Below are positions 7,543 through 32,675 of a DNA stretch of 32,866 nucleotides, piece by piece. Numbering within the stretch: position 1 is the stretch's first letter; every line of letters starts with the position of its first letter. A model generated the notes under the pieces. It ran no database searches. It saw nothing but the letters and a program-made list of their open reading frames with translations, and was not told where the DNA came from. The translations under genes and the position numbers were made by a program. The DNA comes from Prevotellaceae bacterium (lineage in GTDB: Bacteria; Bacteroidota; Bacteroidia; Bacteroidales; Paludibacteraceae), in NCBI GenBank assembly GCA_031260925.1, contig JAISKN010000290.1, positions 1 through 32,866 on the forward strand, given 5' to 3'.

Positions 7543-10500
7543 TTAAAATGTTAAATCAATACCGAAAGAAAATAATCTTGACGGCAAATAACGGTTATAA
7601 GTATCTACTCCGCGCTGCATCGAAGTTGAAGCACCGCTTACAGGGTCTTTTGTTTCGCCAATTTCGGGGTCAATACCTGTGTATTTTGTGATTGTGAAAA
7701 GATTTTGCGCGCTCATATAAATGCGGAGTTGCTGCATTTTTATTTTTTTCAAAGCCTTTTGCGGCAATGTATAACCAATAACAAGATTTTTGAGTTTCAG
7801 ATAATCGCCTTTTTCCACAAAATATGAGGAAATCTGACTGTAATTTTTATTGCAGTCGCCATCACCATACCAAAATAGGCGTCCGCTTGACAGCGTTTGC
7901 CAATAACCTACGCGAGGCTGGTTGGTCAAGCCATTTTCGCCAAGAAACGAGGCATTAAAGAAATCTGCCGTTGTATTTTCACCAGAAAAACTTTGCGTAT
8001 AGGTTTTAACAGCGTTAAAAATATCAAAACCGAATGCGCCCTGAAAATTCATACTCAAATCTATGCCTTTAAATTCAAAAGCGAGGTTTAAACCCAAAAT
8101 TGCTTTAGGCCAAGGATTACCGATAAAAGTACGGTCGGCATCAGTAATTCTGCCGTCTCCATTAATATCTGCATAAATTAAATCGCCCACGCCTGTTCTT
8201 TCTTCCTGATAATGTGATACCAAACCGCCTGTTTTTTCAAATGCGCTTCGATTGTAGTCATCAACCTGCTCTTGTGTTGCAAATATTCCATTAACTTTAT
8301 AACCGTAGAAAAGAGCCACAGGGTAACCGTCTGCTGTGCGGTTTGACGATTGGTTGCCCCAACCATACAATATAGCATCGTATGGTTTGCCTTCTCCCTC
8401 GACTTCTGCAAAGTTTTTCATCACATTTTTATTAAATGAGCCATTTACGCCGATAGAATATTTTAAGCCAAAAGATGTTTTATCTGCCCAAGTTACGGAT
8501 ATTTCGTGTCCTGTATTTTGCATTTGCCCTGCGTTGGTCATAATTCCTCCAAGCATTTGGTCGGTTATTGTGGCATAATAACCGTTTGGACCTCTTACTC
8601 CGCTTGTGAGCGGCACCTGCTGCGAATAGAGCATACCCGATGTTTGACGGTTGTAATAATCGTATGTAATGTTTAATCTTTGTTTCAGAAAAGCAAAATC
8701 AACGCCAAAATCCAGTTGATGTACAGATTCCCACCTTATATTTTCATTTGGGTGAGCAAGCAGTTCAAACCCATAAGTTTCCTTATCTCCAAAAGTATAT
8801 TTAACTTCAGCATTGGTTATTTCTGCGGAATACAAGAACTGTGGTATTTGGTCATTGCCCAAAATACCGTAACTTGCGCGAATTTTAGCATTATCAAGCC
8901 AATCAAGATTATCTTTGATAAATTTTTCTTCGCTTAAACGCCAGCCAACATTTACAGAAGGAAAAAGTCCCCATTTGTTGCGCGGTCCGAATTTATCAGA
9001 ACCGTCATAACGAAGATTTGCAGTAAGGAGATATTTGCCTGCATAAGAATAGTTTATTCGTCCAAAAAACGATGCTACACGATTGCGCCAACGTCCGTCC
9101 CACGCTTTTTTATCGTATGCGCTGCCTGACAAATTTACAGTTTCCGCAGTCGGCACAGGAAATCCAATTGCATTAATATCTACTCCGTAACGGTCGTATT
9201 GTAAAATTTCCGTTCCAACCATTATTTTAATATTGTGGTTGCCAAGCAGTTTTTTTGTATCGTATGTTAATGTTGAGTTAAAGGTCAAATTTTGCGAAGT
9301 ATTTCCGCCTGCGTCCATAGATTTATTGGGATTTTTATCCTGTCCAAAATCATACGATTCTGTAAATCTGTTGTATGATTCGCCATAAAATTCGCCTGCA
9401 ACAGTTGTGCGCCAATCTAATCCATCAACAAACATAATATTGGCAAAAATCTGCGCATTCAAAGTATAGCCTTTGTCATAATTTGAATGATAAACCATCT
9501 CATTGCCGTAAAGATTAGTTCTGTTGGTGTTATCAGATAGTTTCCCCCAATTATCGTTTTCATCTATTGGGTCAATAATTGGGTATGAAAAAAACGGAAT
9601 AGTGTTTGCAAACTCGCCAGGACGAGATGGATTGCTTGTGCGCAAACTTCCATAAAGCGATTCTCCTATTGTTATATGTTTATTAAATGAATATTCAAGG
9701 CTGTTTCTTATAGAAAAGCGTTTTGCCCAAGTATCAATAAAAGTTCCTTTTTCACCGTAATAACTACCTGAAAGATAAAATTTTATTTTTTGATTTCCGC
9801 CCGAAACAGCAATGTTGTATTCCTGCTCAATGCCTGTGCCGTAGAGTAGTTTAAACCAATCTACATCGGGCAATTCATTAATATCGCTTACCCCATAACC
9901 TGCAAGTACTCCATCAATGCCGTTTTGGTTTGACAACCCTTTTGCTCGTATAAATTCATCTCTGTTCAAAAGTTTAATATTTGTGTTAACATTGCGTAAT
10001 CCCACGCGCGCATTGGCAGTAATAGATGCGTTGCCTGCACAATCCGTTCCTTTTCCGCCTTTTTTGGTGGTAATAAGAATAACTCCGCCTGCTGCTCTTG
10101 CACCGTAAATTGCTGCCGAGCCTGCATCTTTAAGAATTTCGATACTTTCAACATCTCGCATATTGAAGTTGAAGCCCGCACCCTGCGCTACTCCATCAAC
10201 AATATAAAGCGGTTTCATTCCATTGACAGAGCCAAGACCACGAATCATAATATCTGCCTCTTCGCCCGGTGCGCCGCTGTTTTTGGTAACCATAACGCCC
10301 GCAGCCATTCCGCCGAGAGATTCCGCTAAACTTTTTGAGGAGAAATCTTTTACATCATTTGCCCTTACAGAAGAAATTGAGCCTGTAATTTCAGAACGCT
10401 TTTGAAAACCGTAGCCAGTGGCAACTACCTCGTCAAGTTCGCGGCTGTTTGCAACAAGTGTAAAATTATAAACATCTTTGCCTGCCGACACTTTTTCTTG

Positions 10501-25175: not shown

Positions 25176-25540
25176 TCTTTATTTTTTGCTCTTATTATAA
25201 CCATAAAAAACAAGAAGGGATTGTCATCTCGACAACCCAATCTTTTCTTAACCTTAAATCTAATACCATGAAAAACACATTGCAAAGGTAAAGGTTTTTT
25301 TTATGCTGTACAACATATTTCCAAAGTTTTTTCAACTTTAACCTTTCTTAACTTTTTAAAAAATTTAAATAATTGATAATTAGATTTTTATGAATTTGAG
25401 CATTGTGATTTTTAATTGAAAAAAGAGTGAATTTTGTCGTTTTTTTGCCATTTTTACCCTATTTTTTAGAGCCTGTTTTAGTTAAAAAACCGTAAAATCG
25501 TCATTTTTTTTCATTTTTACTCAAAAAATTGCATTTCGTT

Positions 25541-26300: not shown

Positions 26301-28130
26301 ATGAAAAAAGCATTGTGTATAATCTCTTTATTTTTCGCGCTGAACTCTTCGGCGCAAGTTGTTGAACGGCTTGAGCCTGCGCAGTGGTGGGTCGGAATGT
26401 ATTACTCCGAAGTGCAAATTATGCTGCACGGCGAAAATATTGCTGACTGTTCGGTGAAATTTGTTGATAACAAATTGAAAGTCAACCGAATAGAAAAAAC
26501 CGACAACCCGAATTATCTTTTTGTTTATGTTGAAACAAAAAATGCTCAGGCAGGCGAATATTTTTTATCAATAGAAAAAGGTAAAAACCGTCAAACTATG
26601 CCTTTTACGCTGAAAAACAGAGCAGCAAACGCGAAAACCAGACCAAGTTTTTCCGCTGCTGACGCAATGTATTTGCTGATGCCCGACAGATTTGCAAATG
26701 GAAACCCAGACAACGACAACCTGCCGAATTTTCACCAAAAAACCGACCGAACAATAGCGGGGGCGCGGCACGGCGGCGATATTCAGGGAATTATTGACAA
26801 AATTCCGTACATTGCAAATCTCGGGATTACCGCGCTTTGGACTACGCCGATGTTTGAAAACAACGACACCGAATATTCCTATCATCATTACGGCACAACC
26901 GATTATTACAAGATTGACGAGCGGCTCGGCACGGCAGAAGATTACAAAAAACTCGCTGATGTTTGCCATTTGAATGACATCAAACTCATACTTGACGTTG
27001 TGCCAAACCATTGCAGCGCGGCGCATTGGTGGCTCAAAGATTTGCCCGCGAAAGACTGGTTTAATATCTGGGACACTTACACCTCGACAAATTATCGCTG
27101 CAACCCGCAAACTGACATTCATTTTGCCGAAGCAGACCGCGAACTGCTTACAAAAGGCTGGTTTGCGCCTAATATGCCCGATTTTAATCTTGACAACCCG
27201 CTCGTGTTTGATTATCTGTGTCAGGCGTATGTTTTTTGGATAGAAACGGTTGGAATTGACGGCTTGCGCGTTGATACTTACCCTTATAACAATATTAATC
27301 AGGCTGCAAAATTCCTAAAATCAATAAAAGACGAATATCCGCAAATAACGATTGTGGGCGAATGCTGGCTGAAAACGCCTGCGGAAATCGCGTTTTATCA
27401 ATCGGGCAGTTTCAACAGGCAGGGATTTAATTCGCAAATTCAGTCGGTGATGGATTTTCCGCTCAAAGATGTGTTTGAAACTGCGCTCACAGAAGAAGAG
27501 GCGTGGGACAAGGGCTTGATAAAATTTTACAACCATTTTGCGCTCGATTTTTCGTACCGCGACCCAAATATGCTGATGAATTTGCTTGATAATCACGATA
27601 TTAGGCGTTATTCGGTAACGATAAATCGCGATATTGATGTCTATAAAATGGCGTTGGCGATGCTGACCACTGTGCGCGGTTACCCGCAAATTTACGCAGG
27701 AACGGAAATTATGCTTGACGGCGCGCAGGACAATTACGAAGGCACTCGTTACGATTTCCCCGGCGGTTGGAAAAGCGACAAGCGCGATGCTTTCACCGAA
27801 AACGGCAGGACAAAAGAAGAGAACGAAATTTTCCATTATCTGCAACGGCTGCTCTTTTTCAGAAAATCAAATTCGGCGTTGCAGACAGGTGAAATGAAAC
27901 AATTTATTCCGCAAAACGGCACATATTTTTATTTCCGTTATGACGAAAAAAATCTTGTAATGGTTGCCGTAAATAATTCTCAAACACCGAAAACCGTTGA
28001 TTTAGAACGCTTTAACGAAATGAATATCATAGGCACAAAAGCAGTCGAAGTTACCACAAACGAAGTCTATAATCTGGAAAAAACTTTGACAATACCACCA
28101 AAAACAGTGCTGGTGCTGAAAGTGGAGTAG
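26301..28130 (+). CDS. Alpha-amylase family GH13 (cyclomaltodextrinase/neopullulanase, SusA-like)
   Basis: 609 aa; YLLMPDRFANGNPDNDN, DVVPNHCS, GLRVDTYPYNN, IVGECW, LLDNHDIRR; N-terminal domain as in cyclomaltodextrinases. Confidence 0.93.
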   Translation: MKKALCIISLFFALNSSAQVVERLEPAQWWVGMYYSEVQIMLHGENIADCSVKFVDNKLKVNRIEKTDNPNYLFVYVETKNAQAGEYFLSIEKGKNRQTMPFTLKNRAANAKTRPSFSAADAMYLLMPDRFANGNPDNDNLPNFHQKTDRTIAGARHGGDIQGIIDKIPYIANLGITALWTTPMFENNDTEYSYHHYGTTDYYKIDERLGTAEDYKKLADVCHLNDIKLILDVVPNHCSAAHWWLKDLPAKDWFNIWDTYTSTNYRCNPQTDIHFAEADRELLTKGWFAPNMPDFNLDNPLVFDYLCQAYVFWIETVGIDGLRVDTYPYNNINQAAKFLKSIKDEYPQITIVGECWLKTPAEIAFYQSGSFNRQGFNSQIQSVMDFPLKDVFETALTEEEAWDKGLIKFYNHFALDFSYRDPNMLMNLLDNHDIRRYSVTINRDIDVYKMALAMLTTVRGYPQIYAGTEIMLDGAQDNYEGTRYDFPGGWKSDKRDAFTENGRTKEENEIFHYLQRLLFFRKSNSALQTGEMKQFIPQNGTYFYFRYDEKNLVMVAVNNSQTPKTVDLERFNEMNIIGTKAVEVTTNEVYNLEKTLTIPPKTVLVLKVE

Positions 28131-28205: not shown

Positions 28206-28232
28206 AGCGTGTCTTTTTGGACACGCTTTTAT
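28206..28232. terminator. Bidirectional rho-independent terminator
   Basis: agcgtgtc-tttttg-gacacgct with T/A runs on both sides. Confidence 0.8.
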
Positions 28233-28234
28233 AG

Positions 28235-28276
28235 TGGACCCTGTTGGGCTTGAACCAACGACCCCCTGATTATGAG
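28235..28276 (-). other. 3' fragment of tRNA-Met(CAU): candidate attachment site (distal att) of an integrated element
   Basis: Minus strand CTCATAATCAGGGGGTCGTTGGTTCAAGCCCAACAGGGTCCA = anticodon loop, 3' anticodon stem, variable loop, complete T arm, 3' acceptor strand; no 5' half present. Confidence 0.8.
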
Positions 28277-28421
28277 TGATTTTTAAAATTTTATACAATA
28301 AATTGATTATCAATGTATTATATAAATTAAATTATTTTTTTGTAAAAAATGCGTAAAAAAAATTTCATTTTTAAATTGCTTTTTTTGTGTCCAAACGTCC
28401 AAATGTCCTAATTTTTATCAC

Positions 28422-28452
28422 AAAAAAACAGGTGCGCTGCGCCTGTTTTTTT
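28422..28452 (-). terminator. Rho-independent terminator downstream of the 77 aa ORF
   Basis: aaaaaaacaggtgcgctgcgcctgttttttt. Confidence 0.75.
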
Positions 28453-28477
28453 TACAAGTAAATCATTGATAATCTGC

Positions 28478-28711
28478 TTATTGCTCAATATAGCCAAATT
28501 TTTGCAAGTCATCAAGAAATATTTCGGCATTGTCAGTTCTGACGATATTCCCTGTTTGAATTTTGTACCTGTCGGCAAAATTTTGCATATATTGCTCGTT
28601 CGTGCAATCGCTATCGAACAAACTGCCTATACGCAGTTGCTCAACAAATTCTTGTGCTGTGGCAGCGGTGATACGCCCACCGTCTGCCAAATTATAAATT
28701 TTCTTTTTCAT
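28478..28711 (-). CDS. Hypothetical 77 aa protein, downstream partner of the amidoligase
   Basis: Clean ORF MKKKIYNLADGGRITAATAQEFVEQLRIGSLFDSD..., same strand, between amidoligase and terminator. Confidence 0.7.
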   Translation of the reverse strand: MKKKIYNLADGGRITAATAQEFVEQLRIGSLFDSDCTNEQYMQNFADRYKIQTGNIVRTDNAEIFLDDLQKFGYIEQ

Positions 28712-28768: not shown

Positions 28769-29725
28769 TTAAGCAGCAAGTTCCAAAGTTCTGTATTTAT
28801 AAAAATCAACCGTTTCGGCGTTATTAAAATTTTTCAAGCCGTTAAGCGATTTATCAGTGATTTCGTATTGGGCTGAGAAATCTACCAAGTTACTTAAAAA
28901 TCTTACCCAAGTGCTGATTTTCAAAAAGTCCGTTGTACCGTTGTGCTGACGAAATTCGCAGGTTTTATGTCTGCTGTACGATTGTGGATTGACTTTCCAA
29001 TATCGACTGTTTCCGAGTATTCGGTTAAACTCTTCAACGTTTGTTGCCGATTTAATTTTTGTTTCAAAATTCATAACCTGCTGAAAGCCTTTGCAGTAGG
29101 TATTCGCATTGCCGCGTCTGCTTTCGGGCATAAAACCGTCAATTACTTTTTCGAGCCGCGCATAGTTGATGTAAATTCGTTTCCATTGGTCAAGCGTGAA
29201 GTTTGCGCCGTTGATATGAACGTGTGTTCCGCAGGATTTATTGACTTTTGCACCACATTTTTCAAGCACTCGGCACACTTTCATCATTTCGTCAAGCCCT
29301 GCTTGTCCTTTTAAAATTGGGCTTACAAGTTCAAATGTGCTGTTTCCTGTCAAACTGCCATCGTGTACAATTTTCCAATGTCTGCGGGTTGTATGGTTGT
29401 AATCTTCGGTTTCGCAGGCGATGCCCACAGCATTGAGTTTTTGTTTCAAAACCGATTTTGCAACGTTGTACGCCTCGAACTCAACGCCGAATTCTTTGTT
29501 AAAAATTGCAGGCGTGATGCTTGCCGATTCTATTATTTGCGTTAAATTGCTAATTTGCAGCCCTTCAAGTTGCATTTTTTTATAAACGTTTTGCACAAAA
29601 CCATAATTGCCGTTTGTGAGCAGGTCAGCGATTTGCCGTTTTGTTAATCCAAGTGCGAGCATTGCGCGAATTTTTGCGGTTTTTGTTCCGTTTTGATTTA
29701 AAATCTGTTGTATTTGCGGTTGCAT
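28769..29725 (-). CDS. Putative amidoligase (Amidoligase_2-like) with N-terminal helix-turn-helix-like region
   Basis: FELVSPILKGQAGLDEMMKVCRVLEKCGAKVNKSCGTHVHINGANFTLDQWKRI; N-term TAKIRAMLALGLTKRQIADLLTNGNYGFVQNVYKKM; start at MQPQIQQIL preferred. Confidence 0.82.
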   Translation of the reverse strand: MQPQIQQILNQNGTKTAKIRAMLALGLTKRQIADLLTNGNYGFVQNVYKKMQLEGLQISNLTQIIESASITPAIFNKEFGVEFEAYNVAKSVLKQKLNAVGIACETEDYNHTTRRHWKIVHDGSLTGNSTFELVSPILKGQAGLDEMMKVCRVLEKCGAKVNKSCGTHVHINGANFTLDQWKRIYINYARLEKVIDGFMPESRRGNANTYCKGFQQVMNFETKIKSATNVEEFNRILGNSRYWKVNPQSYSRHKTCEFRQHNGTTDFLKISTWVRFLSNLVDFSAQYEITDKSLNGLKNFNNAETVDFYKYRTLELAA

Positions 29726-29768
29726 AATTTTATTTAATTTACTGATTATCAACTTGTTAATTATACAA

Positions 29769-29776
29769 CAAAGATA
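29769..29776 (-). promoter_or_regulatory. Candidate -7 box TATCTTTG upstream of the amidoligase
   Basis: caaagata on the plus strand, about 44 bp upstream of the ATG. Confidence 0.5.
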
Positions 29777-29852
29777 ACACAATGATTTGGAACGTGCAAA
29801 TATAATACGCTGATTTACAGATATTTACGAAGATTTAAGGAAGTTTAGCAAA

Positions 29853-32225: not shown

Positions 32226-32675
32226 TTATAAGTTCTTAAATCTTTTACCAGTTAATGCTGTCATATCATCGTTACGAATCAACGCCCCTCCATATTGAAA
32301 GAAAACAGGTACTCCAATCATAGAATCAATGTTATATTTCATTTCGGTTTGATACATCCAAAAATTATAAAAATCCGATTGTCCAATTAATTTTCTTATA
32401 TAAGCAACAATTATCGTGCTGTCGTTTTTCTGTCTCCAATAACCTGAAATACTATATTCGCTTGGCACATAAGAAGTTAATGTGCTGTCGGCATTGGCAA
32501 TAATCAAACAACTAATAACGCCGCCATCGCCGTTAGGAAAGGTATCTAACTGTGTATCGAAACTAAACTCCCAGACCGCATTTTCAAACTTCAAATTTTT
32601 CGGTTTTTCAATCGGCGGCTTTTCGCAGCAGGCAAGCAAGAGGGCTGCGGTAAAAATTAATGCAAGTTTTTTCAT
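32226..32675 (-). CDS. Hypothetical lipoprotein
   Basis: 149 aa; MKKLALIFTAALLLACCEKPPIEKP lipobox. Confidence 0.8.
   Translation of the reverse strand: MKKLALIFTAALLLACCEKPPIEKPKNLKFENAVWEFSFDTQLDTFPNGDGGVISCLIIANADSTLTSYVPSEYSISGYWRQKNDSTIIVAYIRKLIGQSDFYNFWMYQTEMKYNIDSMIGVPVFFQYGGALIRNDDMTALTGKRFKNL

Follow-up and report, generated by a model that had tools for sequence, protein, structure and literature searches.

A displaced tRNA-Ile2(CAU) 3′ half as the probable attR scar of a tyrosine-integrase prophage in a Prevotellaceae draft genome

Introduction

Islander-class genomic islands in tRNA genes combine a whole tRNA with a displaced 3′ fragment and carry their integrase beside the rebuilt tRNA; an identity block that begins at the anticodon loop defines the A-type sublocation of the Islander survey (PMC4383910). 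Among described phages, Bacteroides phage Versailles (ON453897.1) has an integrase related to the one discussed below, and temperate phages of Porphyromonas gingivalis (e.g., phage017a, BK068098.1) carry a related amidoligase and tape measure.

Here we describe a locus of this kind in the window, by which we mean the whole 32,866-nucleotide stretch of DNA analyzed. The window is contig C97 of a draft genome of 3.02 Mb in 357 contigs, from a bin that is 89% complete with 4.3% contamination. We conclude, with a probability of roughly 0.9, that a tyrosine-integrase prophage inserted into a tRNA-Ile2(CAU) gene, which formerly lay between ftsZ and an amylase gene, and that a tRNA fragment in the window is its attR scar.

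Results

On the minus strand, from 28276 to 28235, the window contains a tRNA 3′ half that starts on base 1 of the anticodon loop (CTCATAA) and ends with discriminator A73. This half lies within a 45-bp block (28277-28233) that is identical to positions 6218-6262 of contig C171 (100% identity, E = 3.6e-17) and spans from 1 base before the anticodon loop to 2 bases past the discriminator. Similarity between the two contigs breaks off sharply at both ends of the block, and the flanks are unrelated. The junction consists of the following features.

28206-28227, minus strand: intrinsic terminator stem-loop, one terminator-like site
28233-28277, minus strand: displaced tRNA-Ile2(CAU) 3′ half, the probable attR core, with A73 at 28235 and CTCATAA at 28276-28270
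28278-28368, no strand: AT-rich, non-coding element-side arm of the probable attR

ARAGORN found no whole tRNA in the window, and an Rfam search of the window did not recover the half tRNA, as expected; Rfam matches around the scar that scored below the gathering threshold were set aside as chance. The tRNA half and the terminator together fold better than shuffled sequences (z = -2.9). The terminator is probably the tRNA gene's original chromosomal one, left with the fragment, and a displaced tRNA-Val half in the same genome likewise retains a terminator. On the plus strand the stem-loop has a shorter T-run, which could also serve the convergent amylase gene.

The genes on the two sides of the junction are as follows.

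26301-28130, plus strand: cyclomaltodextrinase/alpha-amylase, chromosomal side (Pfam PF00128, PF09087, PF10438)
28369-28453, plus strand: 85-bp element sequence with a strong hairpin terminator, T2, at its end
28478-28711, minus strand: 77-aa ORF with no family match, the element's last gene before T2
28769-29782, minus strand: phage amidoligase (PF12224, phrog_2443), 52% identical to Porphyromonas gingivalis phage amidoligases
29853-31865, minus strand: C-terminal part of a tail tape-measure protein
32226-32675, minus strand: small lipoprotein-like ORF with no family match, placed in the element by position only

The amylase has an orthologue that is 78% identical in a same-genus genome. The phage structural genes in the element are those for the tape measure and the amidoligase, the latter without a match among the viral contigs. 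As the tape measure has no detectable homology to the N-terminal part of its longer relatives, its gene is probably truncated and the prophage may be decayed.

A sequence-only reading of this DNA had reported the minus-strand 3′ half at 28235-28276 with its CTCATAA loop, a stop in homology at the anticodon loop, a chromosome on the left (amylase side) and an element on the right, and a turn to phage-like genes at the junction. Our analysis agrees on each point: the sequence is as described, the break is abrupt and falls 1 base before the loop, the amylase is chromosomal, and the amidoligase and tape measure lie right of 28277. Two other statements can be made more precise. The shared 3′ half, put at about 42 bp, lies within an exact block of 45 bp, and the bidirectional terminator proposed at 28206-28232 is a minus-strand site with its stem at 28206-28227 that has only the shorter T-run on the plus strand.

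Two further features of the window lie on the amylase side. A member of the Bacteroidetes FopS sRNA family (RF04319, 75.9 bits) maps to the minus strand at 25204-25278, about 1 kb from the amylase gene. Positions 1-119 overlap exactly, over 119 bp, with the end of contig C143; this is probably the assembler's k-mer overlap, and C143 likely continues the chromosome leftward.

The genome contains one intact CAU tRNA with this 3′ half, at C171:6186-6261 (labeled Met by ARAGORN), and one half copy, in the window. On C171, ftsA and ftsZ are followed by the intact tRNA, a hairpin terminator, and the end of a tyrosine integrase gene on the opposite strand. The integrase piece is a C terminus of 115 aa that ends 57 bp from the tRNA, with the contig edge inside the gene. 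It matches phrog_216 and phrog_1, retains the R, H, and Y catalytic positions, and is 60% identical to a full-length integrase from a viral contig (L080) that likewise lies beside a tRNA; the fragment alone had no Pfam match. The terminator-like hairpin 3′ of the rebuilt tRNA is on the element side. Since phage-like genes lie right of 28277 and the chromosomal amylase left, C171 is probably attL and the window attR.

On C171 (L004, 1895-6090), ftsA and ftsZ adjoin an opposite-strand decarboxylase-like gene (speA-like by eye), with no visible cell-wall gene cluster. The C171 FtsZ is only 56-59% identical to those of same-genus genomes, versus 78% for the amylase with one of them.

tRNA-Ile2 decodes AUA after lysidine modification. 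In the acceptor stem of the C171 tRNA (GGACCCT / AGGGTCC), the C4:G69 and C5:G68 pairs, which are identity elements of E. coli TilS (PMC12514573), are both present. Separate Met tRNAs are encoded elsewhere in the genome, the initiator on C209 and the elongator on C355. The C171 tRNA is 80% identical to E. coli Ile2 (the copy used is annotated as tRNA-Ile) versus 74% to E. coli elongator Met. On these features the C171 tRNA is best read as tRNA-Ile2(CAU), a predicted TilS substrate. The sequence-only reading had anticipated that an intact CAU tRNA sharing this 3′ half would lie beside an integrase; such a tRNA exists, on C171 rather than on the window's contig, but the identification of the parent as tRNA-Met(CAU) is rejected, given the acceptor pairs and the two other CAU tRNAs.

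The same genome encodes two full-length relatives of the C171 integrase, one on C61 at tRNA-Val(UAC) and one on C209 at tRNA-Arg(UCU). Searches with both of these tRNAs returned an exact 43-bp 3′ half of each elsewhere, at C61:3648-3690 and C265:298-340, respectively. The 5′ edge of the loop that carries the anticodon is where all three identity blocks (Ile2, Arg, and Val) begin. The C265 fragment, which has a CI-like repressor gene next to it on the element side, is presumed to be the attR of the tRNA-Arg element. The tRNA-Arg (C209/C265) and tRNA-Val (C61) elements resemble the Ile2 element in integrase family, in the anticodon-loop boundary, and in an element-supplied hairpin after the tRNA. 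In contrast, their att core lies before the integrase start, whereas in the Ile2 element it lies after the integrase end.

A single contig, C61 (L083, 3648-9928), carries both the displaced tRNA-Val half, on the minus strand, and the intact tRNA-Val in the opposite orientation, on the plus strand; between them lie first a repressor-like gene and then an AMP-binding gene of the chromosome. This arrangement would fit either a misassembly or an inversion for which one of the breakpoints fell within the prophage. In both sisters, paired direct repeats of the TTACAAA type also flank the att core, lying immediately before the start of the integrase and next to attR; they are possibly integrase arm-binding sites. 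Their positions are:

C209 (L082), 2150-2300: TTACAAA-type repeats
C61 (L083), 10003-10135: TTACAAA-type repeats
L087 and L088, beside tRNA halves: TTACAAA-type repeats

Paired repeats of this type are not evident in the tRNA-Ile2 element. A TTGTATA motif shared by the sequences to the left of all three attR cores is not claimed as a feature, as its spacing varies (15 versus 18-19 bp) and the DNA is AT-rich.

Relatives of the C171 integrase, which come from the same bacterial family, from viral contig L080, and from phage Versailles, often adjoin a tRNA gene, be it Pro, Arg, Ser, Val, Leu, Met, or Asn. A nearby tRNA usually shares the strand of the integrase, and about 110-200 bp separate the 3′ end of the tRNA from the start of the integrase that follows (272 bp in one fragmentary relative). 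In one exception, L108, the upstream tRNA is on the opposite strand, and about a third of the relatives have no tRNA in the stretch examined. We did not count tRNA clusters on the tail side of the L094, L097, and L098 integrases as att sites, as they face the wrong way and are >500 bp off. The arrangement in the sisters, and in most of the relatives, has the integrase pointing away from the tRNA, and only on C171 did we see an integrase whose end faces its tRNA.

These parallels bear on whether the half could be a chance duplication or a degenerate tRNA remnant that arose without site-specific integration. Degenerate tandem copies of the tRNA-Ile2 3′ end do exist in a genome of the family (L006). 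The window copy, by comparison, is exact over 45 bp and bounded at the anticodon loop, the integrase and the phage genes are on the expected sides, and the genome holds two parallel cases. We consider an origin by duplication or decay of a tRNA scarcely credible.

In the L006 array itself (G014:C125, 1-740, another genus), a tRNA-Ile2 precedes three degenerate copies of its own 3′ half, and in these copies a CCCGATAGCTATCGGG-type palindrome replaces the anticodon loop. An ORF for a GIY-YIG endonuclease (PF01541) lies between the second and third degenerate copies, and the array resembles an expansion at the same tRNA, either of the homing type or driven by repeats.

The intact tRNA and the half are on separate contigs, and the gene content that flanks them fits the expected order. 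The 85 bp at 28369-28453 share 96% identity with the stretch immediately behind the tRNA-Arg integrase on C209, and these are the only two close copies in the genome. Because T2 so closely matches the sequence behind a related integrase and has no other close copy, the view that C171 and the window are ends of one element is supported by sequence. Joining them would recreate the order in the tRNA-Arg sister, where the integrase and a late gene converge on the terminator, except for the position of the core.

We propose that the tRNA-Ile2(CAU) gene originally lay between ftsZ and the amylase gene and that, on integration, the strands were exchanged at the anticodon loop or close to it. The 3′ half brought in by the phage, together with a new terminator, would have rebuilt a whole tRNA beside ftsZ (C171), while the original 3′ half and its terminator would have been pushed to the amylase side (window). 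The circular form would read integrase, T1, attP core, T2, late genes, with the integrase directed toward T1 and the late genes toward T2.

Alternatively, the half could be an attR scar left by another or an older element, not the one that carries the C171 integrase, if this tRNA received insertions in tandem or in succession. Tandem insertion into a single tRNA has precedent (PMC4383910), the two ends are on separate contigs, and the tape measure looks truncated. We regard this as improbable, given that the genome has a single intact and a single half copy of the tRNA and that T2 ties the window end to the integrase family.

A contig that is foreign, or chimeric at a repeat, could also mimic two ends of one element. 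The contamination of the bin (4.3%) and its 357 contigs allow for such an artefact of assembly or binning, and short repeats such as the 45-bp core are spots where assemblies break or misjoin. Against this, the FtsZ of C171 and the amylase of the window are each closest to same-genus genomes, and both junctions are internal to their contigs with consistent content on each side, making an artefact very improbable.

Within the bin, no contigs overlap the element ends, the sole end overlap being that of the window's left end with C143, and the interior of the element is missing from the bin. A search of the bin for the N-terminal half of the C171 integrase matched only the sister integrases. We also looked for an empty site. 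The tRNA, amylase, and FtsZ showed no common neighborhood in 60 relatives, and in four other genomes of the genus ftsZ, tRNA-Ile2, and the amylase gene are not neighbors and no empty site was present.

Discussion

The scar in the window is of a well-known kind, and the biology is otherwise textbook. Our analysis corrects the identity of the tRNA and adds a minor twist in the architecture, namely an integrase that faces its tRNA. The scar also places at exact coordinates a boundary between chromosome and element that gene callers and tRNA finders overlook. Since the tRNA-Ile2 gene was found only once in the draft genome, the element must rebuild this tRNA for AUA decoding. More broadly, one Bacteroidales phage integrase family is found next to a variety of tRNA genes, with three instances in this genome.

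One account of the twist is that the att core moved from the integrase start, as in the Arg and Val elements, to the integrase end in the Ile2 element, with the 85-bp terminator staying with the late genes. We hold the odds of such a move to be even, as the reading draws on one sister comparison and on the proposed join of C171 and the window. If the core did move, integration now parts the integrase from the 85-bp terminator. Phage lambda has the order int-attP-sib, which the Ile2 arrangement would resemble.

Compared with known systems, the locus is closest in layout to the Islander-class tDNA islands with anticodon-loop (A) sites (PMC4383910), which share its whole tRNA and displaced 3′ fragment, the integrase beside the rebuilt tRNA, and the identity block from the anticodon loop; here, unlike in that class, the two ends fall on different contigs of a draft assembly. 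The integrase of phage Versailles is 50.5% identical over 97 aa to the C171 piece and also lies beside a tRNA, in this case tRNA-Arg, but it starts 108 bp after the tRNA and reads away from it, whereas the C171 integrase ends facing its tRNA. The P. gingivalis temperate phages encode an amidoligase about 50-52% identical to that of the window, placed before a full tape measure of 1349 aa, while in the window the amidoligase follows a shortened tape measure and lies next to the att site.
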